A DNA stretch of 64,000 bases from positions 50,783,370 through 50,847,369 of the forward strand of contig CM049307.1 in NCBI GenBank assembly GCA_026874595.1, given 5' to 3'. The notes under the pieces were generated by a model that did no database searches, was not told where the DNA came from, and saw only the letters and a list, made by a program, of their open reading frames with translations. Source of the stretch: Sipunculus nudus. Lineage: Eukaryota > Annelida > Sipuncula > Golfingiida > Sipunculidae. Position numbers and translations under genes: made by a program. Positions 1,863 to 57,435 of the stretch are shown here, in pieces. How positions within the stretch are numbered: position 1 is the stretch's first letter; each line of letters opens with the position of its first letter.

Positions 1863-1983
1863 CATCTGGTGTAGTGATGCCATCTTGCGTCCTCCACTTG
1901 AGTCTCTTCACTTCAGACACTTTAGCATTCGCACCAAGGACAAGTTCTTCTACTGAGCTGATCTTGAAGGTATTAAACAAATT
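1863..1983 (-). CDS. MAN2B1: Mannosidase exon 25 (C-terminal domain)
   Basis: Encodes residues 953-992 ([14 protein letters not shown] ... [13 protein letters not shown]). It matches the human DLFSTFTITRLQET ... RLKW region near the C-terminus. Acceptor TTTTCAG at the high side, donor GTATGT at the low side; the exon ends in phase 1, so a further exon must follow to the left. Confidence 0.9.
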
Positions 1984-16900: not shown

Positions 16901-19900
16901 ACTTTGGAAACTCTATTACATTGTTTTTGTCGATGGATCAAGGATGGTGTCTTTCCGATTAAGCTGGACAGCAAGTTCCTCCATAAAAAATTTTTAAATG
17001 TCTATGCGTCCATGAGTCTTTTATAAGACAAAAGTGATATCTTATAAGACACATCATGGTCGGTCGTGCATGACGTTGCCTTGTCTGACATCACCAGCTG
17101 GAATGGCTTATTTATTTCTCAGTTCACCAGCATTGAACATGTTGCAAACATTGATGGCTGTCCTGTACATATTTTAGATTTTTTGTCTTATAAAAATTCA
17201 GTTCAATGTAACACTTTATTTTTCATTCAGATTGAAGGCTGAATCGCTCCTTCAACCACTGGGCCAGAAATGAACCTTTCAAAACACTACATAAAATAGC
17301 TTTCCAGTATAGCAAAAGGTATTCAGCAACTTAAGCCAAGGTAAGGGCACCCAGTGTTTACCTGCTTGCTGCTGAACAAAGAACGTTTTGTAGCCAAGTG
17401 GAGGCAGTGTAGCAGCAAACACCAGCTCTCCAGTAGCAATGCTGCCGTTATGAGCTGGAATGGCTTTGGTGGCTGCTGACAGTGGCACAATCTGTTAAAA
17501 AATAAAAATAAAACATCAAGGTCATGATCAGAGTGGATTTTAATATTAGCAGATAAATAAAGCTCTAGCAAAATGGACAACGTTTGTTATGAGGTAAAAC
17601 TGATTATACTGGATATCAAGGATGTCTATAATCAACAGGAATATTTATATTTGTAAGGTAATAAAAATAGCAAGTATTCAACTACAGTAAAAGTTAAAAC
17701 ATGTGTAATAAGATGACCTGAGGGACTTGTCAAAAGTGGTCTTAACTCCAAGGTAGTCCTATTATATAGTTATAACTTATGTGAATGCTTTAATTTGGTT
17801 AACTTAAGGTGGCCTTAAAAGTTAGATGGTCTTTTTAGATAGGTGGTCTTTCAGAAAGGCTCCACTAAAATATGAAATTAGACAAATAAAACAGCATCCT
17901 GATTAGTGTTTATGCAATGATAATTGAATATTTTCAGCAATAAAAACTAAATAATACTCAGACATGAATTTAATTTTCTTGTAATAACACCTGAAATAAA
18001 TAATGTTTGCATACTTAAGAAGTTGTAGTTCCTCTTATTTTTTACATAAACTTTACCTGAGATTTGACTGTGGTCATATCTGGTCCTGTCACCATGTAAT
18101 TAGATCCACTGACTGGCACCCTGACCCAGTTAGACACCATACGTCCGATGGGGTTGTACAAAGTCACTGTGAACTGTAACAAATTTCAAGCAAGACAATA
18201 ATAACGAGAATATCAGTATACAATAGAATATATCTAAACATTTCCACTTTAAAATAAATCTAATCTTACTGAAAATATAACAGAAGGAAACTAAATGTTG
18301 ACTGTATTCATGCTGTAGTCATCCAAGTTTTATAATGAATTAGCAATATTCAATGACAAATATTCACTAGGTCTCAAGGATCTGAAAGATCTTTATCAAA
18401 CATTTTGTGGGAAATTACAGCCTCCTTTATAAGTAAATTTAGCAGTCAATTGTAAAATAAGCTTCATGTTCAGTTAGCCATAAGCAAAATGACTATCTCC
18501 ATCTCTAACACATAACTTCATACTTACTGTCCAGATCAACTTATTTTTTACACAAATATAAGACGAAATTTCCCTCATATACTAAATCTAAGGTAATACT
18601 TATTTCAAATTAACAATTAATCACTTTTTTATTTAAAATACCTTAAAGTGAAGATTTAAAGAGTGCACAATCAGTTAAATGGTGAAAATATAGCCAAATA
18701 TACAATATATCTCATAAGAAATATGACAAGAGTATCCAAAGCTAATAATTTCTCGTTTATTTAAGCATATCTATGCAGTTACGTAATAAATGTTTAAAGC
18801 CATCTATGTGATTCTGGTAGTGGTTGACCTAAGAAATACTGACACATAATAATGATATAATCCTGTTTCAGAATGACACTTATCACTGACCATTATCAAC
18901 TTACCTGTTTATTTTGCTCAGACACAGGACAGTAGCTGACATTTGTCAACTGACAAAATCCCTGTTTTGGTGCTGGAGTGCTGGACTCCTGCATGACCTT
19001 ACCCATGGCTGAGTTCACCACATCCTTAAAAGGGATTACATCTCATTTGCATATTTAATAAACAGGTTTGATACTTACTGCCTGTTATGTATTATAATGA
19101 TAATAATAAAAGTGTTTTTTTTTTCTGAGGATAAACAGTTATACTCACAACTGCAACTTCTTTGGTAATCAGGTGTTTAATATTCAGAACCACAGTGATT
19201 TTACAATAAAAGATGCCCTGATTGTGATTTAGTACCATCTGGTGGGCATTGTGTTAACTAAAGTATCCTGGATGGCATAAATACTGACAATTTTACATGA
19301 TTATAGAGATTGTTCTAGACCTTTATAAAGGGTATTCTTTCTGCCCCTCCCTCTGAAAAGTTTGTGTTTTTCACATAAAATTCCATTACTTAAGATTCAT
19401 CCATCACCTATAAAAGAATACAAAAGTAATCTCTCAGTGTAAGGAAAACAGGCTCCATAACTTGAAAGACAGAATCATTTATGTGAAATACATTGCAACT
19501 GAGAAGATCTTCAAGTTAATTAAGGGTAGTATTCCTCAAATAATATATCCTAGGATTTCTCATAAACATCCAGTTAAGTTGGGTTTTTTACCTGACATTC
19601 TTGGATGCCAGCAGCTATTCTTTCAGCATAGTCATAAGCAACTGCCTGTTTCTCTGTTCCACTGTAAACAAAAAAAGGTATTGGTTTCAAGAGGCAACAC
19701 AAATGGAGGGTCATGGACACAAAAAATTACATATTTTTTTCATATTTTGGTTTTATATTTTATGATACAAATGAATTCACCAGGTCAGGTTGTATTAAAT
19801 TGGAAAATAACAGAAGAATAAAATATGGTTAGGGAAATGTAGTCAATAATATTTAATAATGTTGAGTTTATTTTTATCATTAGTTGTGTTGATTGGTAGA

Positions 19901-22900
19901 TCACATTGTTTATGTATCAAGTAATGGAACTTACTAGGCTAAAGTCTGTTATGATTGGCTCAGAGAAGATTCTAGAGAATCCAGGTGCTTCTATGAGGCT
20001 CTGTGGTAGTTTCCACCTGAACAGGTTCCACAACTCTTTGTTACTAGAACTTTGCGTATGACACATGTTTCGAGATGTACATCGGCACCAAGCGGGGTGT
20101 TGAGAGGACGATTATAGGTCCTGGAGTTTTATTTTTAGCCAAGCAGGGCATACAGGAATACTTTGTGTGTTGTATTTGGAGCCAGTTATGGCAGGCAAAA
20201 GCCAGAAAACTGTGTATTGTGAAAGAACTGTTTATAAGACAGAGACCTGTCAATGGTGAGGAAAACACAAACAAACTTGTTTTGTTGCATCACCTGGACT
20301 AGAAATTTCTGGACTATTGCGTGAAAGATCCCAAGAAATATATCTCCACAACATGTGTGGTGCAACATTTTACATTATATTGTGGTATATAATACACCAG
20401 TACATTTTTTAATGTCCATGAATTAGCACTGTGCTCCACATAGGGGTGTTTTATACAACATTTTTAAGTAATAACCTGTTCCTTAATTAAATCATTTTCA
20501 CAGATGCCTTTTTTTAATAAGGTAGTAAGCACTGGTCAGTGACTGAGACAAATTTGATCTTTTTAGGGACACACTGAAACCTGGGGCCTGTTGCAATAAT
20601 ATTTTACTGGACTTAAGCCCAGTTGGGGGCCTAAATACCATGATTACAATTGTGACATCATAATGGTTACCATGGTGACACACAGATGCCCCTGGGCTTA
20701 AGTCACCTACATGACTTAAGTCACCTTATTGCAACACACCCCAGGGCCCAAACTGAGAAACAAGGGCCCAATTACTGGTAAACACTTGAAGATAACATTT
20801 AGAAATAAAAGAAATGGTCATGAATCCTGTTTAATCATGATGACTGCATCTATCCATTCCCAATCAAATCAAAGTACAGGTGAAAAGATGTATTTTTAGT
20901 GTTAAACTCTTTTTAAGGGTCAATTTATCTAAATTTGGGATTGTCTAAACACCTGTTTCTGTAAACCACCTTGGGCCTGGCCATTTGTCAGACTATATAT
21001 TTTATAGTTAAAAATTCCCATATATTACTGAATTTTACAAATATTTCTGGTGTTGATGGTTAGAGTACTGTCCATTCCATTATAATCACTTGGAAAATGT
21101 GTAAAATTCGCAAATAAAACATGTTTGATAAGGCCGTTTTCATTGGGCCCAGGTTTATATGCCCTATACCTGCATATCCAAGGCATGGTCACAGAGAAGT
21201 TCTGTGACAAAATTCCAATCCGACCTTCATAAATTAATAAAATTAATTTAACTTACCTGACAGCATCATGATGCTGAGCCACACCCATAGCTCTCCCTGT
21301 AATAAGGCAATGTAAAAGGTGTTATTCTTCATATTTAATTTAACTTGCATCATCACAGTTATATGTTACTTAATAAAATTTTGGGATGGGAGTTTTACAT
21401 AGTTATTATAAGAGTTTATTAATTTGAAAAATAGGTTAAACTAAACTTATAATGTCTGAAATTGTAAAATATTAGTTGAATATACTATATTAATGTAACA
21501 TTATATTTAAAGGCACTCAATAATGCATATTACTGTTTATTGCACAAAATTCCTTGTTTGCTCTGAATAATAAATTTAAAGTAAATAATGAGAGGCATGC
21601 CATATACCTCTTGGAGGTTGACCTCCAACCCTTCTTCATCACTGGCACAAATTAAATATTTGTTTGTAAAGAATTGTACAGACATGTACCATATATTCTA
21701 TTACATACTTGTCAAAAAAGTTCAATTCAATTCAAACTTATTTAATGTCTCTCAAAATCAACTAATAACTGTTATACCAATTTAATTTGTTTTCCATATT
21801 AAGACTTTATTTATTGCATTTCATCCCTCTTATTTGAAAGATTCAAACCAGGTCCTTTTTTAAAGTTATCAAACTTAATCCAAACTCTGTTAGGCCACAC
21901 AATAAAATAGTTGTTCTATGCATTTGCTGTTCCTGTTTTTCATGGATCCATATGGTGCAAATAAGGACAATGTCGCTGGTTATGTTGCTAATTTGTCTTC
22001 TTGATTCAATTCCTGGAAGGAATTCTCAGAGGAATGGAAAATGGACTGGATTTTATGTTGAAATGATGTACCATTACAAGTATTGAATTACTTTATTTTT
22101 CCTGCAAAGCTTACAAAATTACACATACTGTATATCAAACAATAACTGAGTAATAAATTTGCTTGCTTGCAGCATATGTATTGTACTCAGAATCCAAAGA
22201 ACAACTAGAATACGGGTAGTCGACAAGCGACTACATGTATCCGCCTAAGTCAGAGTGGAACAGGTGAAGTGAGGCATGGATTGAGTGGCAATGGGAAAAG
22301 AGTGTTGCATATTAGCATGGATGTCTGCAGCCAAATTGTGTATGTAGGTTGCCCCCCCCCCCCCCCACCACAAAATCAAGAAAGCAGTCCAAGTTGTATA
22401 CATATGCAAAATTTAAGGCAGATAAGTCAAACCACTACATGTATATGAGTGATTTTAGCCCGTGGAAGACAAACAGATGAACGCTGAGCAAAAATGGTTG
22501 CAGTTGACGCCACCAGTTTTGCGAATGATAAAGAGCTATGTGAGAACTATACACATGCAAAACTTTGGTCCAATCGGTCAAAAGGTTCCCAAGAAATGAG
22601 CTTGGATGTCTGCTGCATAAACTAGGATGCAGGTGGCGCCACCTGTCATAAAAATCAAGAGAGCTGTCGAGGATGTATAAACCTGCAAAATTTTAGGCAG
22701 ATATGTCAAACCACTGCCGAGATATGAGTGATTTTATCCCATGGCAGACAAACAGACAGGAGCTGTGCAAAAATGGCTGCAGGTTGCGCCACCAGTTTTG
22801 CGTATGATGAAGAGCTATGTGAGATCTATACACATGCAAAATTTTGGCCCAATCGGTCAAACGGTTCCCGAGATATGAGCTTGGATGTCTGCAGCGTAAA

Positions 22901-24384
22901 CGTGAATGTAGGTGGTGCCACCTGTCATAAAATCAGAAAAGCTATCCAGGATGTTTACGCATGCCGAATTTCAGGTGAATTAGTCAAGTCACTGCACAGA
23001 TATGAGTGATTTTAACCCAAGACAGACGAACAGATGGACACTGTGCAAACATGGTTGCAGGTGGCGCCACCATTTTTTGTGTATGTTAAAAAGCTCTCCA
23101 AGGGCTACATTTGTGCAAAAAAATTTTCCTGATCGTTCAAATGGTTCCCGAGATATGAGCTTGGATGTCTGCAGCGTAAACATAAATGTAGGTGGCGCCA
23201 CCTGTCATAAAATCAGAAAAGCTATCCAGGATGTTTACACATGCCGAATTTCAGGTGAATTAGTCTAGTCACTGCAGAGATATGAGTGATTTTAACCCAA
23301 GACAGACCAACAGATGGACACTGTGCAAACATGGTTGCAGGTGGCGCCACCATTTTTTGTGTATGTTATAAAGCTCTCCAAGGGCTACATTTGTGCAAAA
23401 AAAATCCTGATCGGTCAAACGGTTCCCGAGATATGTGGGTTTATGTGTGGAAACAGACGCACAAACGGACGCAGAGCGCAGAGGAAAGGTCAGAGGTCAA
23501 AACAAAATCGGGGCGCAACAGTTCACATGTGACCCCAACATAATCCCGGGTTTCGTAAAATTCCGCCCAGCGGTTACGGAGGAGTTCTCCGGACACCTAC
23601 GCGGCGGCGGCAGCGGCGTGCAGCTGAAAATATAGTATCTGCAAAACTCTGTTTTGGCGGATACAATTAATTTTATGGTGGTTTGAGCAATATTTATCCA
23701 AATGCCAATGACATTCTCTTGTTGATCAAGTAGTTCCTGTATCCTGACAAATCTGTCTACTGGGACCAAGTTCTGTATACAGTAAATCCTCAAAATTATG
23801 ACCACCAACAGGACCTTGACATAGTGGTAACATTTTTGAGGTGGTCATCTAAGCAAGGTTTTGATATAAAGAGCAATAACCAATTGGAATCATTAAAACG
23901 TGGTTGTTATTTTGAGGTGGTCACTTAATTGAGGCAGTTGTTAAGCAAGGTTTTACTGTATAAACCAATATGATGATGAAAATAATAACATTTTATGCCC
24001 TTTTTGTTCAAATTTTATTTAACAACTGATCACTTACTGAGGACATCCATTTTGGCGACACTTCCGTCTGCAGGATCAAGTCTAGCAAGTACTCCAAGCT
24101 GCTTACACACCTATAAAATTAAATATTATAATTAAAGTACTAATAATGATTAACAGAATCTGAAGCAATAAAAAAATATAACCTGTAACCTGCTATCCAG
24201 CTGTTCAGGCATTATCACCACTTATAATTATAAAGCTATTTAATCAATATGTTATATCTTATTTTACAAATGAAATTTTTATTATTCCAGCCATAGCCAC
24301 AGAAGTGTGTTGTAAAGAAAAATTTAAGATCATAATAAAATCCACAAACTTAGAACCTCAAAAGTTTTAACAGCTGCTAAGTGG

Positions 24385-24435
<51 letters not shown>

Positions 24436-27400
24436 TATATTTATGCTGATATATATATATATATATTGTATAAAAATAGCTACCTGTAACAAAGATGATG
24501 GTGAATTATGCAGATAATTATTTGATCTGTAAGCTCATAGGAAAGAGTTAAAGAAACATCAATGCAATATGAATATTTTGTTTTATTTGGCTTTCTTGTA
24601 TTTTGCTCTAACATGCCATGTTAGTTTGCCAAATAGGCATGCAGTTTGCCATCAAATGCTTTTAAACATTTCTAATTAAAGAAAATGTAGGAATAGCAGA
24701 GAGAAGTACCACATATATAAAACTTGCATTTAAATAGCTAAAACGAAAACATTCTTTTCATATGTGAAGAGTTACCTGGAGAAAGTTGTTTGTTGATCTG
24801 ACGTAACCTTTGAGCGCTGGTCGGCTGGTGAAGTAACCGGTCCAGAAGGTATGACCACGTGAAGCGTAGGGGAAGAAATCATCACTCTTTGTGGTCAGAG
24901 TCAAGTTGGCCTTGTTTATAGCATAGGTGTAACAGGAAGGAGTAGAGTAGAAGATGTTCACCTTGCTACCCTTACTTTGCTATTTCAAAAAAAAAGAAAA
25001 AAGTTTTATATGAGTGCTCATGTTTTCTTTATACCTCTACCAGGTGGCAGCAGGTGTCATGTTTTACCTTCTTCCTTATTTGGTTGGTCTGTTAACAACT
25101 TTTTGAAAAATTTCTGATACAGATTCTGATAAAATTTGGTGGAAAGTTAGGCAAACATCCAAGGAACAACACTTCATTTTGGCTGACTGCATGTACAAAA
25201 TTGAAAGATCACTCATTGTTTGCACCAAATATCATGGAGAGACACACCTGGATTACAAGTGGGGTTATTTTAGTGGCCCCCTACATTATAATGACAAGTG
25301 AATATACAAAAGTTAGACTACGGTGCACCATGGAAACAAGGCATTTGGCTTATTTCTATAAAAGTTTAAAAAATTATCTTTATCCAATATGCATCTGCTT
25401 ATTGAATCGGTCCCTTTAAAACTGATGAAGGTTAGGAAGTTTCCACACAATGCTCCCATAACTCAAGGGCACTTTACTGGTTTTCAGACCCTTCCATCAT
25501 ACTCACCCTCTGGTTGACATACTTGATCAGCTTGTCAAGGTTGTTATAATTCTCGCGAGCATTTTCCCACTGGAAGTCTGATCCCATGGTCATCATGATA
25601 TGGCCTGATCTGTAGTGCTGGGCCTAAAATGAAAAGTCCATTAAACTTGAGCAGATAGACTTCAATCAGTTAGGGTATACCAAAGAGAGAAAATATTCTA
25701 TACTTGTTGCAAGTGTGCATTTTATGTTAAATTCATCAATTAAAAATTTGTAATATTTGGTCGCCTTAATTGGTTGAAACAAAAGTGTTCTTCTATTCTT
25801 GAAATGGTCTGTATATATAACACAAAGTTTTATTAATTTTTGGTGAAAGCTTTAACACATTTAATGGTTATTTTGAAGTAATCTAGAAGACTAAGGAAAG
25901 TCCATGTATGGATCCATCCATGTACATTTTATATTTTCAATTTTATCAATGCCCACCTGGTCTTGTGCGGCCTTGATGAAATCATCCACACGCTGGTCAA
26001 CATTGTAATCATGGAGACTGGGGTCATCCTATTGAAAAAGAGACTCAGGGGTCTTATAGCTCAACATGACCAAAGAATAAACAGAGATATATCTACACCA
26101 GAAAGAAATTAATCAATTACAGACCCTTATGTCAATCATTTAAGTTTATTAAAAGCTTTAACCACAAGAAATATGAGAAAAATGGTTGTTTATATATGTA
26201 AGAAAACTTATTTATAGCAATTTACTTAATATAACATGAAGGAGAAAATTAAACTTACATTGACCATATGATGCACTTTCAATGGATTTTTTTGCTAAAG
26301 AATTATTGAGTAAAACTGAGTTATTAAACCTAGCAAGTTTAACTAACTCATAACAAGAAGTGGATGCTAGTGTCATCCTGTAAAAATAAAAAAAAATTCT
26401 GCAAGGTTCATGAGAAGCTTCAAGCAGATAGTCACAGAAATAACAATATATATTTTACAATTACCAGTCAAAAGAATGACAAATCCCCAGGAAATAATTC
26501 TAAAATGTTACATATAATGTCCCAAATTAAAATTTTCAAATGAGCAAGTTTTAAGCAAAACCTAAATCTACATAAAGCAATCAATGTAAATGTTTATTGT
26601 CATATCTGTGTCTTGCTACTATTTGTAAAATGTGCATTTAGTCATATACACCAATACAGGTTGACTCTAGCATTCAATATAAATTGATACCAAAAATGCT
26701 GATGTAGCAATGATAATACCAGTTAGGTTTTTAAGCTTCAGTATTTTTTGACTGGGGCTTTGCACTGAATAAGCATAACAACTGGAAAGTTAGTTAATAT
26801 AGTTAATGTTAGCTCCAAGTTATGTCCCAGCTGTGAATGGAACACTGAATAATGCATGGTTGTTCTGTTTTTAGATCAAGCTTACCAACTCCATGTGAGA
26901 TATGTTAACATATAGTATTATTTGGTCATCTCCAGATTAATGTAACAGAACACATTGTATCATTATCATTTTTAAAAACTTCTTCTGATTTTAATGTGGT
27001 ATTCCAAATATTTATGTGGTATTTAGTGGTACCTCTTTCATTTTTGTTTAAGTTAAATCACCTGTTTTGTCAAAAATTTGATGCTTCTACACAACTGAAA
27101 TGTTCATTAACTGGCAATATGACTGTAACAACCAGACTGTAGATAAACTAACACCATAGTATTATGAACCACACTTGCAAATATTCTCTCTCTCTCCCTG
27201 TCTGTCTCTCCCTGTCTGTCTCTGTCTTTCTCTCTGTGTCTCTGCATCTTTCTCTGTCTCTCTATTCCTGTTTCTCTGTCTCTCTTTTTGTCTCTCTCTG
27301 TGTAACTTTAACTCATTCTCTAATCCTCTCCCTCACTCACTCCACAGTCTTTCTCTCTCCCATTTTCTCTCCTTATTTACTCTGTCATTTTTGTCATTCT

Positions 27401-30400
27401 GCCTTTCTAATACCCGCTTCTCCCTCTCTCTCTCTCACTCTCTCTATCTGCAACCCTCTTACTTGGTGTGTTCACTCGCTCACTGGAATTTACAGGTTTT
27501 AATATAGTCTGTGGTTTAGATGAGGTAAGTGCTTTAGGGTATACAGGTAGTGTACAGGTTTGGTGTTTGCAGGAGTTTACCATAATCGGAGGATCAGCAC
27601 ACAATATATCAAAGCAGAAAGAAGGAGGATTCTGGTACATATTGTAGTTGACACCGGTGAACAGGGATGCCTGCGGGCCTACAACAATAAACATGTCACA
27701 TTTGTTTTAGTTTAAATCTAATGAATAAAGGAGATGTGCTGGGTCTCAACCTACTGTGATGGAAAGCAAGAGTTGAACAACCGGAGAGAGCACTAAAATC
27801 AGTAATCATCCATGTCTTGTGAAAAATCTATATTGCATGAATTGAAACAGAATTACATTTCTATGATAGACTCATCTTTTCACCTCACTAAAACCAGAAA
27901 AAAAAGAACAAAAAATATGGAGCAAATCTATTGAGAGTCTGAATGTGTGATTTTTTAAATTTTTTCTTTCTTTAAATAAATTTTAAATTTGGCAAAGTTA
28001 ACTAGTTTAAAATCAGTCAATCAAACAAGCTCCTCATGTTGTGCAGTAAATAGAGATCAATGCAAACAGTGAACACATGAAGCAAAGTGTCAAAGCTGAT
28101 CTGTATTAGTGATTATCAAAAAGCATTAGATACTGTGGTCAGTTTAATCTTTCATGATTTACACTTTTTCAATGTTTAACAAGTATTTATTTTTTTTTGC
28201 CATTCCATGATAAAGTTATCAACACCTTATAGAATACTGTGTGATTCCTGTTGATGACTGATAAATTTTGCCTTCACCTCAGTGCAAATTTGAATATTCT
28301 AAAACACTGGGGTCGCTTCGGTATTCCTTGCTATAAGTGTCCTTAATGCCATATATAAAAATTTTGTGTTTTTTAACAAAAGAAGTATTTAATTTTGTAC
28401 TATGAACAGTAACTTTTATGAAACCTAAATTATATATTTGTCCTTGATATTTATGTCTGTAATGCCCTACAGATCCACAAACAATGTATAGTCAAGAAGA
28501 CTTAACATGGACTGTAATAACAGGGCATCCAGTCTTGCCATCCAATCCAAATTCATCAATTAGAATGTGTGCAAACAGCATAATACGTTCATCTTCAGCA
28601 GTGAAAACTATGGGATAGATCCAGTAGTGGAATACTATGGGATAGATCCAGCACTGAAAAACTATGTGATGTATCCAGCAGTGAAATATAATGGAACAGA
28701 TCCAAGCTAGAGACAGTTTTAAGAAAAAAGCAGGAAAGAAACAGGAGTGCTGGAATTTAATTACCACAACTGCATTGTCAAAGCAGTAGTAATGAGGGCA
28801 CCATTATGTATTGTAGTTCACACCAGAAAACATTAAATAGGAATTCCTTTGTGTCTGTTACAATAAACCAAGGTCTCAAAACTTATTTGAAAAGAATTTA
28901 ATGTGCAGTTTACTTATTATAAGTCACCAAGACCTAAATTTCTGACTTTTTTAAAAGAGGTACTGCATAAACCTTTTGGAAAACAAAACTGGAAGCATCT
29001 ACCTCTATCTACACTTATATCAGACTTATCACCATACATCATAATGGAAGGACAATGGATGGATATCATATCTTCTATAGCTGAGATAAAAACCTTCACT
29101 CCATTGTCTCATTACACTGAGAATGAGATACCAAATAACTACTAACAGAAATTGGTAAACCTGTTTCATAAGTGAGTGACCATACTCCAATAAAGAGAGT
29201 AAAATGTGACAAATTTGTTTATGTGGGAAAGGAAAATAAGAGGACTAGGAACTGAAGCAATAAGGTTCTGCTTAAGTGCTTTAAGACTGGTGTAGTCTGT
29301 ATGCTTTACTGCTGTTGTATGGCAAATACTATGGTTGGCTGCATATTAACGGGGATTTAATTTTCATGATTTTTACCTTTTAAGTATTTTGTGAGGATTC
29401 CATTTTCAAAATCTTACCAAAAAAATATATACATAAAGTATATCCATTATTATATTAATAATTAAACTAACTTGCAAAATCTTACCAATTTGACTAAAAA
29501 CTGTTAGAGAACATAGGGAATGGGAATACCTGTTCAATATTGGCAGATGATACAAAAGATCTGATTTTATTTATAATCTGAATATTTTTTTTGGCTACAT
29601 AAAATGTATTTCCTTTTTATAATATCATTCAGTTCGTTTAACTCTATGGATAAGGTACAAGTGATGCAAGCGAGGCTGTGGTATAAAGGACTGTTCACCT
29701 CTGAATGTGGGGCATATTATTCACAAAGTTTTTATTTTCTCAGTAATCTCCCTTTCACAAATTATGCAAATTTGAAACCCACATGCCAACCACAGTACCT
29801 CATGCCTTTGTTTGGCAGGTGCAGCCATCTGGTGGAAAATTATATGACTAAATTACTCTCATCATACAATCATGCCTAACTGATGAACTGAAATTCAGGT
29901 GGGTGAGTTGTTAATGTCAATTCTGTTTCATTCATGCATAACCTATAGCAGTAACAGATTTAAGCATGTTTTGCAAGTAAGAAAAATATTACCCATGCAA
30001 GTCAATCTTTTATTAACCATGCAAGATTCAGTGCTCCATGCATGCTGCCTGCGGTGAAAATGTTAAAGAATGGAAGCAAAATAGAGCTACATGTTCAAGC
30101 ACCCAATTATGAAAATGACTACATGAATTGTGCATTAAACATCTCAACATGTGATGTCACTTAATAATTTTCTGTAAATATAAAAATATCCATATTAGCT
30201 GCATTTGAATAATCAGATACTTGTATATTCTTTTGGGTATTTTGAGGCACTGTGGGACTCTTCCGAAAAGAAGATTTAATGTTCCATGGTTTTATATTTA
30301 ATGTTTCTAATATTTGAGGTTTCCTGTCTTCTGTGGGTACTCAAGTTTAGTTGTTATAAGTGTAGTCAGCACTCGAACTGGTCATGGTGATATCATGACT

Positions 30401-33400
30401 AGGTTGGATTTGCACCAGCTCCCTCAGCAACGCTCAAGAACTCTCCAGAGTACTTGAGTTGTTCTGTGAGATATAGACTTTAAATCTAATTATTACTAAT
30501 TGGTAGTGAGTCATTTATTTCTTCTGAAAGATTTACAAATATCAGGTCAAATTTTAAAAAGAACTATTTGTGAAAAGCTGTCTCTTTAAAGAATGAAGAT
30601 GCTTGTTTTTGTCTGAAGTTACTTAATTAATCCGTGTGTTAATAAACCTATATAACAATATCTCCAAATTTGATCCAGTTTATGTTCAATCAAACAGTTT
30701 AAGCCCCCATGACACAAAACTATCAGGCAACATTATTATTTGAATAAAGAGCTCGCATCATAAGCTGCAAAGGCTTTGCCGTATCTTTAAAGCTGTGTTT
30801 CCATGTGCATGTATATGGATATATGTGTTTAAAATCACTCCTTCAACTTTGTAACTGTGGTGTTTCCACATGTCCATCAGCATGTATATCTATGTTCATA
30901 TAAGTGTGAAAATAAACAAAGGATCAATGTTCATGCACAGGGCTGTGTGAACACCTGAGGATTCTTGGTAAAATGACATCTCTCCTGCATAATTCTTTTA
31001 AGACAGCAACATCCACATTACAACTGTATATTTCTGCAAGTGCATGCATATAAACACATACAAACACATGGAAACACAACTATTTTTTCATAAATGAACA
31101 AATATCTGCATATATATGTGCATATGGAAACACAGCTTAATATCACAAACATATTTTGTTGACAATCAAGAAATTAAAGAAGAATAATGAAGGAGACTGG
31201 TGGATCAAGTGACAGCTCATGCTGAAAACCATTAGGTTATCTTACACTACAGGAGAAATTTCGAAAATTTTTCAGAATCACTTTATGTACATTTATTTAG
31301 GATAAGTGTGGGTGAGTGATTAATAGACTATTTGGTAACGGGTTTGAGGAACATCATTATCATGTAATGAGGGTCACATATATTGAGGGCCTGGCATACC
31401 ATTATGGGAGGGTCAGAACAGCCTACATCAAAGCAAAACCCTCCAGGAGGGCCATATCCATTGTAGTTTACACCAGTGAACAGCGAGGCTTTCTCCCCTG
31501 TAATAGAAAAAGCAGCAGTGGGCATGCTGGATTTGGTACCCACTTGGAAAAGCAAGGATCTCATCAAATGTTACATATGTATATCAACATGCAGGTATGC
31601 AGGTACACTCTTCACACAGCAGTTATACACTGTACTCGTTCTAAATCTCCTTCGTTTAAACTGCTGCTTTATTAAGCAAGATTTTCCAGGTTTCACTACC
31701 AGGGCTTGCGTATAGAGCATAAAATATCTACAAGGGATATGTCAGTTTAGATGCACACAATCTGCAAAGCAAGGATTTCTCATCTGCAAGATAAAGTTGA
31801 ACATATAGGTATTCAATATCTGGAGAAAATGCTCCGGTAGAGATTTACTTGAAATATAAATGATTTACTGCAGATATACTGGTATTATCTGGAATATGGT
31901 TTGCAGGTATTTGAACACACTTCTGAAAAGCAAAGACAACTCATCTGTTATATAAATATGACTATCAGGGAATGCAGGTTTACGAGCATTATCTGGAGAA
32001 AACACAATAATGGAGATGTTTTTTCCAACAAAAGCAGAGTCTGGTTATAAATGCATAACAAGTGACCAAGGGGTCATGATACTCAGCTGACTAGGAAGAC
32101 ATACACAAAAGAAATTTTATCATCTGGAAGCCAAAGCTTGTTGGTTGTATTAAAATTCAGCTGAAGCATATAAGGTCAGAGGATATGGGTAACTGAGCTG
32201 TAATTTCAGGTTTCCAAGGAGATTTTTTATGGACCTCAAAGGATGTCAAGTTTGAGATTCTTGGTGCAATTGTAACAATATGTGCCCTGTTAACAGGCAC
32301 CCGCATCTTTCAAGGTCTCAAAAATAGAGAAAAATGCATAAACTTTTGAAAGGTGGTGCCACAAGTCTGCAGGAACTGATGAAAAACTCTATGATGAATA
32401 TGCATGCAAAGAATCATGGTGATCAATGCATTTGTTGTATTTGTATAAAATTTTCAATTATTCTGGGGGGGGGGGTACTTCTGAGCCCTATAGCTCAGAA
32501 GATATGGGTAACAGAGACCTAATTTTAGGTTTTAAAGGAGATTTTTCATAGACCTCCGTGGATATAAAGATAGGAGATTCTAGGTCCAATGGTTACAATT
32601 TGTGCCTTGTTAACGAACAGACAGACAGATGGACAAAGAGTGATTGCTATAGCTCAGATGACGTCCATTCAGGTGAGCTAAAAATTGATATGTTCAAGGC
32701 ATTGGAACATACTTCTTGAAAGCAAAGAATTCTCATCTGTAATAAAAAGATAAGCACACTGGAAAACTAGTCTGTTCCACCAGTAGGTGCCCATTGAATT
32801 TAGCTGGTTATTCTCTTATACTTAAATATTTTCACACAGTTTGAACCTGCATCTGATGTGGGACAAAAGGTTTAATATGAGATAAACCTTTCAGTATACA
32901 ATCAAACATTTATATTTTACAACCTTTTGGTTATTCAGATTGTTGGGGCCAAGTGACATGGTGTCTGACATGGGTTGCCAGCCTCACTTTGATGGTCATT
33001 TTTTTAGAATATTTATGGCACTAAACCACCAATCAGCAGCATTAAAATGTAGTTTTTGATCATGTGATCTGTGACCTTCACCTTCCTTCTATGGGGTTGA
33101 TACATAAAAAAGAAGACTGTTTTCTCATGTATTGACTTTCTCGCATTACTAATATATTTTGCAAGCAATTATAGTCTTTGCTTCATTCCAGTTAATTAGT
33201 CTTATGCCTCATTTCTTTACTGTAGCTTATTTTGTTTTAATTAATCTTTCAATATATGATAACACTGTCAATTTTGAATGGGCACTCCACTGTGGAATAG
33301 AGTATAGTTTCAGCACAAATTTCTTTGACCTGAAAAAGAACAACTATAGTCTTTCCATTAAAAATAATTTATTACTTCATACTTATTGCAAATTCATGAT

Positions 33401-36400
33401 TATGGTAGAAATTAAGATTTTTAATACATGAAATCATACACTAAAAAATAAGATATATGTACCAATAAAAGACAGTCATGACCATCACTTTACTGGTTCA
33501 AGATCTGATCTGGCTTGCAGAATTGATAAAAAAAAGACTTTATAGTTCATAAATAACATAAACATTTGATGCATACAGTTGCAAAGTGATCACTAGAAGC
33601 CTCCCCGCTGAGTGATAATGGGGAATCGGCCATGGAATGTACGACCTTGGGAACAAGGTCAAAAATAAATATCAGCTGCTATCTGTGACCTAGGATTAAA
33701 ATTGGGCCCAAATTTCAGCTTTTGAAAATCAGCCATATTGCAGAAAAAAACAGAAAATGGCAGAAGGAAAAAAAAAATTTGAAATTGTTTTGCAGTTTGA
33801 GGGGACCCAGGTAGGTCCACCCACAATAATTTTACTTTAACATAAATATTAATATAGACATAAAACTCCCCAACCCCTAATAAGCCTCCTCAACTGAAAG
33901 GGGGAGGCCTGAAAAGGATTTGGTAAAATATATAATTTCATAAAATAAAAACAATTTTTTTCTGGTATTAAACTGCCTAGGAAGGCTCCACTGCACATAA
34001 ATAATGAAAATACTGGATATGTAACACGAAAATATACAAAGGACAGGTAAAGCTGTCACTGGGTAGGCAACCCTAGGGTGTGTTTCATACCATATTAGGT
34101 TCATCAAAACAATGTAAATCAAAACAGAAGCCTGGAGGATGCTCATATCCATTATACAGAACTCCTGTTAACAAGTCCCCTTGGTCACCTGAAATCAGTG
34201 ATAGCTACTATCAGTGTGTACTTCATCTTATCTAAAATAAAATGTACTTGTCATATAGGAAATTGTCATATTTGACACTGGCAAGTGCAAAATTTATATG
34301 ACACCTCATGAAATACATCTCAGTTCATGAACCTAACTTTGTCTAACCCTGAGGTAGCTATGTTATTTGTGGACTTGCAAACAGTGTAGGACTCCAGTTG
34401 TGGACTTGTGTCCGGACTCCAGTCCACCTTTTTAATAACTCGGACTTGGACCTAGAAGTGAGGGTTCTGGACTTGGACTTGGTACTCGGACTCAGGGGCA
34501 AGGCCTGGAGATATCTGGTTGAGTCCACCTTAAGTCCAGTAGAAAAGAAACTCTGTCACACATTAAATAAAGTTTGTGCATACGGGTAAACTAATAATAG
34601 TATATTAGAAAAATAAGACTATAAATACCTAGTTTTAGCTCTGTTTTAGGGGCTAAATTGTAATTACACATTCAAGTGAAGGGGCTTGTAAACTAACATA
34701 TAATTTGCATGATTGTCTCAAATATCCTTTTTAAATTTATTTTAATAAGGAGATTTGTATAGGACTCAGACTCAGACATGGCCTAAAGTTCTAATTTACT
34801 CAGATTCTTAAAGGTGAATTCAGACTTGAAAAGCAAGGACTAGGACTTGGGACTCTAGTAGCCTGGACTCGGACTTGCACTCAGAGTCAGATGGTTGGAC
34901 TCGACTACATCACTGCTTGCAACTAACAGTTAAAAGGATGACCATGGCTCTTACTCACTGTTTTTTTTAAAGCAAGTTCAAATTGATAAATGATTCCCTA
35001 AGTTGTCTTCATTAAGCCAATATGAAGGGATATAAAGGCCCTGATGTTTTTTTCAATGGGCATAAAATGGCCAGTATCCTGAATCACTTAAAAATTAAAA
35101 CAATTTGCTGCTCTCCTAGCAGACAATCTGAAAACACAATCAGCTTAAGGATTCTGCATGTTACTTGATAATCCTTTACCAGTACTTTTTGAAGTATATA
35201 GCTATTTCTTACAGAATATATGAAGGAAGCTACTACTCTTAATATTAACCATAATGTTTTCATTACCATTAAACTTGTATATATAAAGATTGTCTTTAAA
35301 TCAGTCATTTTAATTAATTACATGTATTTGGTTGGTCATAAAGAATAAAAGATCAATTTACGAAGACCAACAGATGGAGCATGAATAAACAGTAAAAATG
35401 TTAAAGGGACCCTTTCAGTACTGACCATAATCATATTTTCATAAACATCATTTAAATCAACCTACATAATATCATCAGAACATTTTCACAGAATTTTACA
35501 TTCAATACTGGTATAACAGAAATACAAGAATGGTATACATACAAAAGAAATACCTGTATATGATTTCATAAATAACTCATATAAAAGTCATGCATATGTA
35601 AATAAATCTTACCCAGATTATCACTGCCCCTCCACATCATCTCCATGGTTTTATTATACAGTCTCCAGTCCTTGTCCTGATAGTCTAAACGACCAAAGAA
35701 CAGTCCATCAAATCCAAACTGGAAAAGAGAGAGGAATTTTTTATATTCTCTACACTTGAATTATTAATTGTACAATGTAATCACATAAAATAATATTTCA
35801 CACTTCCTTTAATCTGAAGCTTGGTCATAACACAAGAGAACGCCCCCCCCCCCCCCCCAAAAGGCACATTTGTTTGTGAGTGAAACATGACTGTTTGGCA
35901 CAGTCTTCCTATCAAGCCAGCAGAGCACTCACACTGGGTGGGGGCTGACTGTAAAAAATATCACTAGTTCAGCTGAGATTTGAACTCATGCTCTTCTGGC
36001 TTTGAGTCCTGTGCTCTACCATGGAAGCAAGTGTAATTATTCTGTGAACTGATACATTAATGAGTTTTCAAAAGGCAGTTTTACCTCCAGAAAAGGCCAT
36101 ATTTCAAGAAATAGTTGTGATTGTGTGGACAAACCTAAGATAATGATACAAAGATAAACAAGGGACCCATGGGTCACTGTGCTCAGCTGAATTTAACCTT
36201 GAAGGTAAAAATCTAAAATAATATCAAATGGAGATAAAGTGTAAGAGGAAGAGGTAATAAAGGCCATGGTTGGTTTATATAAATGTTTTGTATTGATGAG
36301 CAAGAAATTGTTGCAAATAATATTTTGTGACCTGACCATGTGTTTCCTAATGTTGAAACTGAAGCATGTGAGCAGTTTGAACAAATGATCTGTACTATTA

Positions 36401-39400
36401 CCATGATCATTAGTTGGCTTTTTGATTACCTGTTGACATTTCAGTAGTTTACACATTTGTTAAATTGAATCTATTTTTTTGTATAATATATACATATATA
36501 TGTATTTTTTTAATTTTATAAAATGTATACAGTTGAAATAAAACTAATTAACAACATACATACATGGCAAACAAAGCCTGATCTCCAATTCTGCAGAGGC
36601 AGGAAAATAATGAACAAATGTTTGTATTAGATCCTCGTTTTTTAATTACATCAATTTTTTTTATTATAAGTTTATATTTCTATACATTTCCAATATAACA
36701 TATATATCTGAATATAAAAGTTGATTCATACTTTTCAAATGTATCATCATAAATCTCAATCTTGTCAGATAACACCACATCATACATACAAATGTTTATT
36801 TATGTTTTACCACAAAAATATTTCTTTTAAATCTGTTAAACAATAAATATCTAAAAATAATACTTGATTTAGATGTCACAATTTTAAATTGTGTCTTTAT
36901 TTATCCATAATGTGCTTCATATTTATGAATTTAAGCATACTGTTTGGTTTAATTATATTTGTTAAAATCATTTAAAAAAAATTGATTTCTTTAAAAATGC
37001 TACATTAACACAACATGGCATCTTCTGGGTTACACCACTCTTCAAGGAAGGTTTTTGTATATTCGAGCGGAAACAGCATTACAATTAAGGAGATACAGTG
37101 AAAACAATAACAATTACTGCATAACACTTGGTGGGTTTTGGGGGGGATGGAGTGTGATATGAGAATAACTGTACACCTGTCACAGCAAGGGATCTCCCCC
37201 AGTGACTGTAACAAATCAGAAACCCTGGCATAGCTGACTTCCAGTGACCTGGAGTGGGACCCTGCATCTGTAATTTGTAATCAAAGCAAATGACTACAAT
37301 AGAGCCTCAAGAAAAAAATCAATAACTAGCCTAATTTTTAAGCTTTTATTTTCAAATTTCAGATTTAAACAGATTCAATACTTATGTTTACATGCTGTGA
37401 AAATTATTCATTGGTACTTACAGGAAAAAAAACGTGCCATTGTCAAAGCTGGGCAAAATTTAAGGTACTGATTTTATTTTTATGCTAATAACTTAAAAAA
37501 TTTACAAAATCTAGATCTAATTTTGGTTTAACAATTTAATCTTAATTTAACATAGTTATATACTTGGGAAAACAGACTCTAGTTTCAAAATTTTTCATGT
37601 TAAGTGAACAAATATTTTTCCTGATTTTTTACATAGTCCATTATGTTTTGGCCCACAACTTAAAGAAACTAGAACACAGGTAGTCAACAAGCCACAATGT
37701 GTATCCCCGCGCCAAAATCAGTGTGGAACGGGTGAAGTGAGACATGGATTGAGTGGCAAGGGGAAATAGAGTGAAGTGTGGCATATTAGCATGGATGTCT
37801 GCAGCCGAAATGTGTATGTAGGTTGTGCCACCTACCACAAAATCCAGAAAGCTGTCCAAGATGTATACATGTTCAAAACTTAAGGCAGATAAGTCAAACC
37901 ACTACATGTATATGAGTGCTTTTAGCCCTTGGCAGACAAACAGACAGAAGCTGTGCAAGCATGGTTGCAGGTGGTGCCACCATTCTTTGTGTATGTTATA
38001 AAGCCATCCACGGGCTACTTTGTACAAAATTTTTTTCCTGATCGGTGGAACCGTTCCCAAGATATGTGGGTTTATGTGTGGAAACAGACGCACATATGGA
38101 GGCTGGGCAGAGAGGAAAGGTCAGAGGTCAAAGCCAACAGGTTAGGCACCAGTTCACATGTGACCCGATAATTGGTGTAAGTTTCGGAAATATCCGTCCA
38201 GTAGTCTCAGAGGAGTTCTCCAGAAACGAACGCGGCGGCGGAACCCGGTCAAAAACATAGTATCCGCAAAACTTCGTTTTGGTGGATACAATTATACTTA
38301 ACAGACTTAATTTCTGGCATGTACATAGGAACTATATAGAAGAATATTTATGATACATATGAGGAAAAACAGATGAGTGGTTTTGATATTAGGCAGTTCT
38401 GAAGTGTGAAAATAGGTTTTTAATAAAAAATTGAGGTTTTTCCTTAATTTCTAGTAGGAAGGAAGTTGCAAAGACCCAGTTTTCGGCTTGGTAGGAGATC
38501 TTGGGAACATCTAACATTATGCCAAATTTTTTATTCCTAGGTCTTGCGGTTTCAAAACGTGCCACATCTACAGACGGATGGACGGACAGACGGACGATGG
38601 ACAATAGACCACGACTTTAGCTCAGATGACTTATAGTCAGCTGAGCTAAAAATACTAATATATGTGTCTAGAAAATGAGTTGTTTCCTTAATATTACTTG
38701 TTTAATATTATCATCAGAGGTTAGCCCAGATAGTACATGTTACACCAGGGTAGTCTGCTTACATAATGAAAACTATTGGGACACAAAGATTTCAGGTCAT
38801 TTATTCTTACACAGATCTGACATAATCTTTTAGGCATATATTTTCCAGCAAATTTCAAGATGCAATCATAAAGCCTGTTGAGATGTCAGATCTTAAATTT
38901 TATCTCTAACTCAACTAATATAAACTGCACAGACTCGATTTTGGGAGTAGGGAGTGTGAAAATGTTTTACAAAATCGAACAATTTTACACCTTTCAGTCA
39001 ACTTTGTCATATGTATAAAATTTTCATATCAACCTATGCATATCATTCATTAAGTGTAGCAAATTATGCATCAAATGAAAAATGTCTCTGACCTGTAAAA
39101 ATTGACTTGCAATTGGTAGGGCAGATATTGGCAGTATCATATCAGTCAATCAGAGTTCAAGGCACACTTGAGATTTTTATTGATTTCCATAGAGCTTTGA
39201 TTGTGCCAATCAGGTATTCATGCATAATGGCAAAACAATTAACCTTGACATATTTGTATTGATTATGCACAAATTAACTAACATTTACAACTAAAATAGA
39301 GAGCAAAGATAGAAATACAACTACTGTGTCATATGAAGTGATAACACTCTGCAAATTAACCAGCATCATCAATTAATTTTCTGTCTTATACAGGTCTATG

Positions 39401-42400
39401 AACAATGAATACTAGTTCAGGGGTATTAATTAACTGACACCAATATGGACACAACCATGAGCTTAACTGAATGTTATGTAAATTAACCCAGTCTCAAAGA
39501 GATACTTAACCAGATTTATGGTTAAGGTTTAATGATGTAAAGATGAAAGACCACATTTTCTGAGCAATCATTTCAGATCTGGGGAGATTAACTGGACCAC
39601 ACAGTATGCATCAAGTATCGAAGTGACAAACATCTTACAATAATTACTATGTGTAAAATTGAATTTTTTATGCTTAGATAAAACTAGGTACAGTGAAACC
39701 TAAACAATATGACCACCAATGGGAGCTTATTAAGTGGTCACATATCAGGTTGGTCTTCTAAGTGAAGTCCGATATAAAGAGCAAAAATAAATTGGGACTG
39801 TAAAATTGGTTGCTACCCCTAGGTGGGCTTTGGGGGAGACTTTACTGTATACACAATTTTGATCTTTTGATAAATATTCTGCCAATAATTCAGTTATATA
39901 TATATATATATATATAGTGGGTATTCTAATCAGAACCTCCGACGTATTATTTTCTTTTATTCAAACTTGACTTGAGACAGACTTGGCCTAATTTCGCAAG
40001 TCCTGACCTTTAAGTCCAAGTACAGGTCAAGTATAGGACCAGAGTCAATTTACGAGTCTGAGTCTAAAAAAAAAGGACTTGAGTCCTAGATTACTACATT
40101 AGAGTATGCTTACTTGTGCAAACAATGAAGCTTGCTCCCTTGAATGACCAAAAGGATCTATCTGCCAGCCAATCCTAGGCCTGCCGCATTCACCAAAGTT
40201 CTCTTTCAGAAACATGAATCCTCGAGTATGCTGGTCAATGATGGCATTATAATGAGTGGCCGCCTCGTCGTTCATACACCATCCTCCCAGGATGAACTCA
40301 AGTCGACCTGTATAATACAAGCCATTTATTTTATATACTTTTTCTTTTTTAAAACTAAATGTTATTTAGTTGTAGAGTATGAGCCAAAAGGGATCAACCC
40401 TATAGTCAAGAATCTATTAATCTTTACACATTATATTAGTAACCATAGGAAACATACAAAACAATACCCTATACTAGTTTATACATGTTACAACATCTGT
40501 TCATGATATTCCAAACTAAGGAACCATTCCAAACGTGTTCTATAACATTTGAGAGAGATATATTTTTGTATGTATAACTGTTTGATATAAATTGTGTAGA
40601 AATATAAATACTGGTATAATTTTCAGTCTCTTAAAGTGCTAATTAGAAATTTATCAATTATGATTGGTAATTTTCATGATAAAGATGTTATACTGGTAAT
40701 ACAGTGATAATTATGTCAGATAACCTTCTTTCACCAACTGCTTCACATCCTGACGAGTTTTCTCATCTTGCTGGTTCCACCAACGATAGAAAAATGCTAT
40801 TTCTACATAGATGAAGCGACGATTAGGATCCAGTAACAACTGCTGGATCACACTGTCAAGGATGTACTGGACAGCGGCATGCTGGATCTCATTGTGAGCT
40901 GGATTATATGTAGAAAGACTTGAATAAGACAACATAATAAAAAAATCTCAGGTCTAAGATTATGATCATATGCAAAACCCTTTTAATGTTTTTGTCTTTT
41001 TGCAGGCATTTACCGAACCCCACAGATCCTAACAACTGAACATTCATTGAAACAGCAACTGATAATTTTATTCTGAAGAGTCCAGTCAAAGAATACTGGG
41101 CTGCCCTTTTGTACGTGATGTTTCCAAATTTGCATTATTCACAAAAGTAAAATTATTGTGAAAATTAAAATTTTGTGTATAAGAAGCATCATCATTTAAT
41201 GCAAGATGAAAGGAAAAAGAATAAAGTTGTAAATAACAACAGATCTTGCATGTTACTTGTTACCAAAGATTGGTGTTATAAATTATCTGGTAAAACTGAA
41301 CAATACTTTCTACTTGTTCAACATTTAGTCAGGTCCCCTCCTACTGTCACAAAGTTATGCACACATTATCCAATGAAATTAAATTATAAAACAATGGAAA
41401 TACATAATGTATCTGTTACTGTATCATGCGACAGTGATATGGAACCCTAATGAAACAATGAAAAATTGAAATTTGTGACAAGATATTTTAACCTCCCAAA
41501 TATGAAGCTAACAACAGTATATATGGGAATAATTACTGTTTACACTGAAACATTGGGTGTTTATGAATATCTTTGTTCACTGCAGTAATAGCATTCACCT
41601 ATCATTGAACCCATCAAACCTTTAAAAGAAATAATCATTATAAGCTTCCTTGTACCCTTAATCGGTTTGGGATATTACTGTGAAGCAAAAGATGTACTTC
41701 TGTAGACAAATTTGAGACATGTTTTTACTTCTGCAGATAACTTTGAGACACATTTGTGCTTCTATAGATAACTTTGAGACATTTGAGGAAACTCACTCAC
41801 CTCCATAGTAATACTGATCCACAGTCTTCAACCAGCCAACATCATCGTGAGTGTGGGGAACAAGGTGGACATTCAGCATCCCCTCCTTACCCAAATTACA
41901 GCTCTGAAAATAATAAATTGAGATGGAAATAAAGTGAATTTTGCCCAGGGTTGTAGATGCTGAACGTGTGACTACAGGGGCGGATCCAGGAGTTAGGATA
42001 AAAATTATAATATTTTTCGACATTTGTGAAATTGATAAAGTATGCAGGATTTTTCATGAAGGATAATACAACAATCTTATAAGTAACCTCATTTTTATTT
42101 ACTTAAAGATGATAAACACTTGATATCATTAAGAATTTTCAGTATTATCAGTGTAATTAAGGATCTACATTACTGGCATTAGAAATTTTAGAACATTATC
42201 TATGTATCTATTAAACCATTTGTTTGGTACTTTAACAAGTGTACATATTAACTATCAGATCATTGAGAGCAAATCAATATCACATGATAAACAACAATGG
42301 TCAATGATCAATATTTTATATGGTTAGGTGTGTGTCCTTGAACCAAATTTGTGATACATTATCTGTGCACTAAAAGTGTGTTCATAGTAAAGAAGTCCTA

Positions 42401-51288: not shown

Positions 51289-51348
51289 GTTCACCGTCGA
51301 ATCCTCGTTGATGATGGATTCGCTCTTTATGAGTCCCGAATGAAAAAG
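51289..51348 (+). pseudogene. Mannosidase exon-22-like relic on the plus strand
   Basis: After an AAG acceptor it reads VHRRILVDDGFALYESRMKK, matching [17 protein letters not shown] of exon 22 (5783-5873), then meets GTATAT. Only 60 nt, against 91 nt in the intact gene, and it ends in a different phase, so it is truncated or decayed. No exon 20 or 21 relative was found before it. Confidence 0.7.
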
Positions 51349-51799
51349 GTATATCTGGCAAAGTATTAATTCTGAGAGGTAAGCTGTTGATCCCTGTAAC
51401 CTTAAAGACCTAATGTATGTCATATGTAAATATACATGTAATTCTCTGAAAAAAACTGCAAACCTGAAAGACCACTTCAGTTATCTTTTGTTATGATACA
51501 TGCAGTTTATACATGACCATTCTGATTTGAGCCAGATTCAATTGCAAAAATATACCATATGAATCAGTGCCCCTGGGTGACATGGCCGATGTACTTATTT
51601 AATACAGTGAGCTCATGTCAACATGCCCCAGAATAAAATTCCATAAAATTCATGTGACTTCATTGTTCACAAGGACAAAACCCCCGTTATGAAAGCAACA
51701 AGCATTACTTTTCAAGTACATGTGTGACATGAATATGAACAATGCAAGTTCTGTACATTATGAACCTGAGTATAAGCGCCAATTACACGAACGTCGCTC

Positions 51800-53779: not shown

Positions 53780-53880
53780 TTCCGGACTCTTTTCTACATC
53801 TTGCCCTTGGAACCAATGCAAAGGTGTCTGATATAAACAACTCCAGTGGAGGTCACAAGATGGCAGCACCTCACCTGCCG
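53780..53880 (+). pseudogene. Mannosidase exon-25-like relic on the plus strand
   Basis: CTTGCCCTTGGAACCAATGC ... GTGTCTGA matches exon 25 (1863-1983) in about 27 of 32 bases; it reads LGTNAKVSD, then after a one-base loss WRSQDGSTSPA, against LGANAKVSE ... [11 protein letters not shown]. The donor GTATGT is kept, in the exon 25 phase. The 5' part is unalignable and abuts the SINE. The frameshift breaks it. Confidence 0.75.
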
Positions 53881-57109: not shown

Positions 57110-57343
57110 ATTTTCAGATATCCATATTATTTACAGATATGTCCATGATAATATTTACAGATATTTACAGATGTCCACCATGTAGATATTTACATTTGCA
57201 GATACATCCACAACGATATTACAGCTATGTCCACAATGATGTTTTTAGATATGCCCATAATGATATTTACAGCTATGTCCACAATGATATTTACAGGTAC
57301 AACCATACTGATAATTAAGATGTGTCCATAATGATATTTACAG
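57110..57343 (+). repeat. Minisatellite of acceptor-like units
   Basis: About ten imperfect units of ATATTTACAGATATGTCCAC plus AATG. Each contains TTTACAG, and the last one is the acceptor of the mannosidase terminal-exon relic. Confidence 0.8.
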
Positions 57344-57435
57344 ATCTGACCAGTGACTTCAGTCCTGTTGATGACTGGTTGACCATCACATTTGAGCCAA
57401 TGCAGATTCATACATTCCAAGTCATTGTGATGTAA
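57344..57435 (+). pseudogene. Mannosidase terminal-exon relic (open) on the plus strand
   Basis: After TTTACAG it enters in phase 1 and reads LTSDFSPVDDW, then LTITFEPMQIHTFQVIVM and a stop, matching the human end ANITLEPMEIRTFLASVQ. The phase fits the exon 25 donor exactly. It is open, but its partner exon 25 relic is frameshifted. It cannot serve the minus-strand gene unless the assembly is inverted here. Confidence 0.75.

Follow-up and report, generated by a model that had tools for sequence, protein, structure and literature searches.

Exons that exist in interchangeable versions, of which one is spliced into the message at a time, have been described in several systems. In the polyprenyltransferase COQ-2 of rhodoquinone-making helminths, annelids and molluscs, the choice between the mutually exclusive exons 6a and 6e alters two strictly conserved residues near the substrate (PMC7434440). 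Among human mutually exclusive exons, 377 clusters (60%) have lengths that are not divisible by three (PMC5740500), and in Dscam-type selector/docking clusters one member is chosen from a tandem exon array (PMC6071210). Here we describe a lysosomal alpha-mannosidase gene (GH38, MAN2B1-like) in a 64,000-nucleotide (nt) stretch of DNA, hereafter the window (assembly GCA_026874595.1, contig CM049307.1, positions 50,783,370 to 50,847,369 of the forward strand, analysed over its whole length), in which exon 6 is present in three intact copies. We read these, from sequence and with a probability of about 0.8, as a three-member, tandemly duplicated cluster of mutually exclusive exons giving three isoforms with altered pocket rims.

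COQ-2 would be the closest functional precedent for exon 6 of the mannosidase, as in both cases an internal exon of an enzyme comes in interchangeable versions, of which one is canonical and the other or others change conserved residues beside the substrate (PMC7434440). The mannosidase is a different enzyme and has three versions against the two of COQ-2; the COQ-2 case is backed by RNA-seq and C. elegans genetics, the mannosidase case by sequence; and exon choice in COQ-2 switches the product made, whereas for the mannosidase any switch of substrate is a prediction (PMC7434440). The human clusters are similar in that neighbouring exons of similar length and the same frame shift the frame when included jointly, and differ in having junction-read support; neither MAN2B1 nor mannosidase occurs in the main text of the human survey (PMC5740500). 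With the Dscam-type clusters the mannosidase exons share the tandem array from which one member is chosen, but they are far fewer and no competing RNA pairing was detected in the gene (PMC6071210). Bovine and human MAN2B1 (1o7d) are the same enzyme, with the same loop containing Tyr261, Pro-Pro and Cys268-Cys273. Titles and abstract openings in the open-access literature yielded nothing relevant on mutually exclusive or duplicated exons in a mannosidase, and we know of no alternative copy of the exon-6 segment in bovine or human MAN2B1. The exon-swap design is already known in kind; its case in lysosomal alpha-mannosidase appears to be new.

The three copies, 6a (34091..34188), 6b (31400..31497) and 6c (27581..27678), all lie on the minus strand between exon 5 (35613..35718, minus), the common upstream partner with an exit phase of 1, and exon 7 (25957..26028, minus), the common downstream partner in phase 0. 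Each is 98 nt long, has AG/GT borders, is entered in phase 1 and left in phase 0, and is free of stops across its 33 residues, all of which agrees with a sequence-only reading made of the same DNA. When all three copies are skipped, the frame runs through ...GSDNLG into an immediate TGA stop after exon 5; the 6a-6b and 6a-6b-6c joins stop in the second copy, and the 6a-6c and 6b-6c joins stop in exon 8 (25507..25623, minus). All five combinations other than a single copy therefore end prematurely, which upholds the claim of that reading that the frame permits only one. Since skipping or joining copies ends in an early stop, exactly one exon-6 copy gives the enzyme.

Between copies, 58-65 of 98 nt are identical (37 differences in a-b, 40 in a-c and 33 in b-c), and the encoded 33-residue segments show 14, 14 and 10 differences, respectively (30-42%; 6a shares 19/33 with each other copy, 6b and 6c share 23/33), so that the earlier statement of different residues at about half the positions was too high. 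The alignment score of each of the three pairs was reached by none of 200 shuffles; nhmmer gave E values from 3e-31 to 8e-34 for the copies, with a model built from these same copies and hence circular. Repeated exons were searched for with 121 tblastn queries (the protein of the gene and 120 homologs), which gave 3,358 matches in the window, and among the 95 minus-strand matches outside the placed exons there was no second copy of any exon other than exon 6. The largest off-exon group (11 matches) corresponds to a decayed exon-6 copy, described below, and the two groups with E below 0.1 consist of fragments chained to other matches. A duplication of neighbouring exons along with exon 6 is rejected by this search.

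The pattern of differences indicates that the three copies are maintained by purifying selection and are not neutral leftovers, in keeping with the earlier claim of three functional alternatives. By codon position, the differences number 8, 10 and 19 for a-b, 12, 10 and 18 for a-c, and 10, 7 and 16 for b-c (Fisher p = 0.004, 0.040 and 0.024), and the ratio of nonsynonymous to synonymous divergence (dN/dS, NG86) is 0.35/2.38 for a-b and 0.29/1.54 for b-c, i.e. 0.15-0.19, with dS saturated for a-c. Scored against an exon-6 profile built from 236 of 240 fetched homologs (four were dropped for length), 6a, 6b and 6c reach 62.9, 73.0 and 67.2 bits, within the range of the homologs (mean 67.6, standard deviation (sd) 9.4). 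In neutral simulations that started at 6b and applied the observed number of substitutions with no selection, not one run in 20,000 came up to the score of 6a (best 31.4) or, again in 20,000, to that of 6c (best 44.3). Nor did any run do so in 12 additional settings, each of 3,000 runs, with other start copies and half the divergence, the closest being those at half divergence from 6b, with 58.0 against 62.9 and 64.1 against 67.2. Neutrality of the copies over their whole divergence is rejected by these runs; a copy long in use could still have lost that use recently. As for the 150-nt flanks of the copies, five of six comparisons showed no similarity beyond shuffles. With the profile scores held and the flanks mostly unrelated, the exons have been preserved and the introns have not.

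The window provides its own internal control for the fate of an unselected copy, in the form of the decayed fourth exon-6 copy at 28777..28866 (minus; direct-repeat family D3, nhmmer E=3.1e-6), which goes beyond the three exons of the sequence-only reading. In a three-frame reading, GVNYN and CFD are still legible in one frame, while stops occur in every frame and parts of the copy lie in different frames.

The residues that vary are predicted to lie beside the substrate. Segment position 15 is Tyr in 236/236 homologs and in all three copies, and when a profile of 18 homologs was aligned to solved structures, it fell at position 239 of Drosophila GMII chain 1hty_A (269 in longer chains, the match starting 30 residues later) and at Tyr261 of bovine lysosomal mannosidase (1o7d_A), where Asn262 and Pro263 follow and Cys268 and Cys273 fit. 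The numbering offset of 49 for 1o7d_A was fixed by His72, Asp74, Asp196 and Arg220, all named active-site residues (PMC11931667). In GMII, Tyr269 forms a hydrogen bond to the mannose of the catalytic site; Asp270 and Asp340 form a dyad whose counterpart in the lysosomal homolog is Asn262-Ser318, a non-conserved subsite targeted for selective inhibitors (PMC13204073). On the strength of the GMII alignment and these papers, the exon-6 segment is probably near the substrate; the closest homolog, P0001, has a structure model (mean pLDDT 76.2) in which the segment forms a strand followed by a long coil.

Directly after the invariant Tyr, 6a has Glu-His, 6b Gly-Pro and 6c Gln-Asn. Among homologs, Glu, Gly and Gln at the first of these positions occur in 3, 79 and 11 of 236, and His, Pro and Asn at the second in 1, 192 and 2 of 235. 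The second Pro (235/236 homologs) and the Cys pair (its pattern present in 217/236 segments) are kept in all copies. Copy 6a is the most divergent and the most acidic, with six acidic residues, no Lys or Arg and two His (a net of 6 or more is seen in 23/236 homologs), and its Asn32 is found in 0/236 homologs. The partner of position 262 is constant, as exon 8 encodes MTMGSDFQ with the equivalents of Ser318 and Asp319. In human alpha-mannosidosis, P263L is an activity-defective allele (9% activity, 15.4 Å from the active site) and S318L retains 32% activity (PMC11931667). The residue table, the structure-based alignment and the published subsite together agree with the earlier proposal that the copies differ beside the substrate site, and the alignment to 1o7d_A likewise supports its placement of the 268/273 loop in this segment. 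The same proposal had the segment follow the nucleophile exon, which proved incorrect: the equivalent of nucleophile Asp196 (in IDPFGHS) is in exon 4 (40114..40307, minus), two exons upstream, and exon 5 carries that of Arg220 (in GRLDYQDK).

By the criteria for mutually exclusive exons given in the human survey (PMC5740500), the gene shows the sequence-testable properties of such a cluster, apart from the optional steric or splice-site incompatibility. The acceptors of 6a, 6b and 6c stand at the 98.5, 99.8 and 91.4 percentile of the 2,254 AGs in the gene (top 9%), and the donors at the 81st-96th percentile. Steric hindrance between copies is rejected by the introns that separate them, of 2,593 and 3,721 nt (2.6 and 3.7 kb), and no splice-site incompatibility that could enforce exclusion was found among the splice sites, which are all GT-AG. 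With introns this long and sites of one type, mutual exclusion would rest on decay or on regulators. We propose that the spliceosome would splice a single copy (6a, 6b or 6c) between exons 5 and 7, that the choice of copy would be regulated by splicing factors, and that products other than those with a single copy, being out of frame, would be removed by nonsense-mediated decay. Three proteins are expected, with common catalytic machinery and with differences in one strand and a disulfide-closed loop. Next to its invariant Tyr261, this loop would vary at selectivity-subsite position 262 (Glu/Gly/Gln) and at loop position 263 (His/Pro/Asn). The use of all three exons, their mutual exclusion in vivo and an altered specificity or pH behaviour are all predictions of this scheme. 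The earlier reading had also tentatively assigned the isoforms to different mannose linkages, pH or tissues, for which the evidence is indirect.

Several explanations other than a cluster in use have to be weighed, the most serious being that only 6b is used, while 6a and 6c, duplicated long ago, kept their function until recently and have since gone wholly or largely out of use. By comparison with the family, 6b is the canonical, conserved copy and 6a and 6c carry rare residues: 6b is strictly closest to 153/239 homologs, against 26 for 6a and 15 for 6c (45 ties; 1 of 240 skipped), and is identical to its tree neighbours P0001 and P0031 at 26/33 and 27/33 residues. The residues of 6a that are unseen or rare (Asn32 and His17, the latter in 1/235), its donor, the weakest of the three, and the fact that a fourth copy has already decayed all lean the same way. 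We nevertheless regard this explanation as unlikely, as 6a and 6c keep an open frame, both splice sites and profile scores that no neutral copy kept in any simulation. A quite different possibility is that the copies act mainly as frame-breaking switches, the inclusion of two copies or none leading to decay that sets the enzyme level, with residue differences that hardly matter. Zero, double and triple inclusion do all give early stops, but a poison exon needs no family-like protein, and each copy keeps such a sequence under purifying selection, which makes this account highly improbable. Least credible of all is an assembly artefact in which copies from different loci or haplotypes were wrongly joined. 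A frameshifted mannosidase relic lies nearby on the other strand, so local duplication within the family did occur; haplotypes, however, would be near-identical, whereas 33-40 of 98 nt separate any two copies. Most of the flanks are unrelated, and the searches showed no repetition of other exons alongside. On these differences and flanks a haplotype artefact is rejected.

A cluster of three exons in use is the reading we prefer, and the following points weigh against it. The dN/dS values were estimated on 98 nt only; dS exceeds 1 for a-b and b-c and is saturated for a-c. The 6a-6c upstream flank comparison was reached by only 1/200 shuffles. The other placed donors of the gene have a mean score of 8.2 (sd 2.6) and a minimum of 3.19; next to them the donors of 6a (2.4) and 6b (3.2) are weak, and that of 6c scores 6.1. 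Weak donors may suit regulation, or they may be a sign that an exon is poorly used. When 12 pairings of the exon flanks with either end of the region were compared with a small control, 25 random intron pieces for each docking region, none was stronger than the best of the control. The exon-6 segment varies among orthologs anyway: homolog pairs that are 55-65% identical in neighbouring exons average 56% in this segment (11,158 pairs), of the same order as the 58% (19/33) between 6a and either other copy, so that copy divergence alone is no proof of a new function. In simulations, P263 is mobile and very weakly coupled to the active site (PMC11931667). Finally, database searches gave no transcript of this species and no near-identical protein (the best full-length match is 61% identical, among the best 120 of 4,636, and fragment matches peak at 72% over 58% of the query, among the best 120 of 568) and no relative shown to carry 6a or 6c, a search centred on 6a having given one candidate and no match.

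As to what the exon choice would do, we suggest only tentatively, at less than even odds, that it resets the pocket rim and thereby gives a linkage preference or pH range that differs by tissue or food state, with 6a acidic and Golgi-mannosidase-like (Glu262, six acidic residues, two His), 6b open (Gly) and 6c neutral polar (Gln). If all three exons are used, the gene would amount to a natural loop-swap experiment at Asn262/Asp270, the position targeted in distinguishing inhibitors of lysosomal alpha-mannosidase from those of the Golgi enzyme (PMC13204073), and the swap would also cover Pro263, altered in human alpha-mannosidosis alleles (PMC11931667). The isoforms would then reveal directly what positions 262 and 263 contribute to specificity, pH range and the tolerance of a change at Pro263, and the tuning of active sites by exon swapping, as COQ-2 shows it, would be extended to a lysosomal glycosidase.

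The gene as a whole occupies 1863..43987 on the minus strand and runs from exon 1, starting at 43987, to exon 23 at 1983-1863, with 25 exon positions placed and AG/GT borders. Exon 1 opens with ATG, after which the sequence looks by eye like a signal peptide, exon 10a (24110-24038, minus) was located by tblastn and its borders read off the DNA, and the last C-terminal exon was not found in the window. Both halves of the reading frame, 410 and 557 residues long, are stop-free. The first 410 residues score 291-292 bits against PF01074, the Pfam GH38 N-terminal domain, for each isoform; the zinc/nucleophile motifs HTHDD, IDPFGHS and QHHDA and the C-x4-C disulfide loop are all present; and the named homologs, among the matches listed, are mostly lysosomal alpha-mannosidases. 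By these sequence marks the gene is a lysosomal alpha-mannosidase of GH38, as first assigned, and its acid-pH lysosomal activity is predicted.

A mollusc origin, which the sequence-only reading had assumed, does not agree with the tree. Built without exon 6 from 68 of 120 homologs, it places the window protein with Platynereis and with transcript or contig sequences, apart from molluscs. The Platynereis-containing groups have supports of 0.944 and 0.915, and the closest pairing of the window protein has just 0.448. Owenia, also an annelid, falls outside the group, and because it does not join, we conclude that the gene comes probably, rather than certainly, from an annelid. Four tree neighbours (P0003, P0005, P0011 and P0012) have a loop two residues shorter, with the second cysteine nearer (FCFxC).

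Same-species isoform pairs, alike outside and unlike inside exon 6, were sought among 28,369 homolog pairs, 217 of them at least 80% identical outside exon 6, and none was clear among the strongest contrasts, in a database clustered at 90%, which hides isoforms. The strongest contrast joins P0029 (Mya arenaria, isoform X1) and P0035 (Dreissena polymorpha, isoform X2), which are 86% identical outside and 52% inside the exon-6 segment; the 78 pairs that are 85-95% identical outside average 85% inside (sd 9%). Rapid change in Mya once its cysteine pair had gone could explain this contrast; otherwise it may hint that bivalves have alternative types of exon 6. Among the 236 homolog segments, 14 are without any cysteine (P0029, P0036, P0049, P0053, P0083 and nine others) and 5 have another pattern; the cysteine-free segments include Mya (two), Mytilus trossulus, Lineus and Branchiostoma, and the 268/273 pair seems to be mostly lost together.

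The DNA upstream of 6b contains an element of ~70 nt that is present four times on the minus strand, at 32690-32760, 31898-31970, 31738-31810 and 31515-31590 (span 31515..32760; repeat family D4, found by alignment and nhmmer), another feature additional to the first description. All four lie in the intron before 6b, with none elsewhere in the window at E below 0.05, and three of the four carry an acceptor-like CAG. Some of the elements have a start that is similar to the 5' end of exon 6b; in this comparison, 0, 3, 0 and 11 of 200 shuffles score as high. The corresponding scores of 100, 76, 102 and 65 stand against a 95th percentile of 70 and a 99th of 129 for 400 random intron pieces, a control which itself includes the elements and the exons; the fourth element is not notable. 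In a scan of the whole window with the element model, the start of 6b reaches only E=0.078. We offer the view that the elements are older exon relics as a suggestion and no more; they could possibly be such relics or a splicing-regulatory array.

On the plus strand, upstream of the main gene and in opposite orientation, a second alpha-mannosidase gene is represented by pieces of its 3' half at 51289-51392, 53800-53876 and 57268-57429 (best E 0.005, 0.032 and 1.2e-4). The first two are frameshifted and the C-terminal piece is still open, which together looks like a pseudogene relic. At 3350-3412, also on the plus strand and opposite to the gene, a weak match to the exon-18 segment (E 0.074, from 47 homolog queries) is either chance or another relic. 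Recurrent translated motifs at 7070-7210, 22992-23496, 37905-38120 and 60685-60864 (minus) suggest an interspersed repeat family in the introns and flanks.

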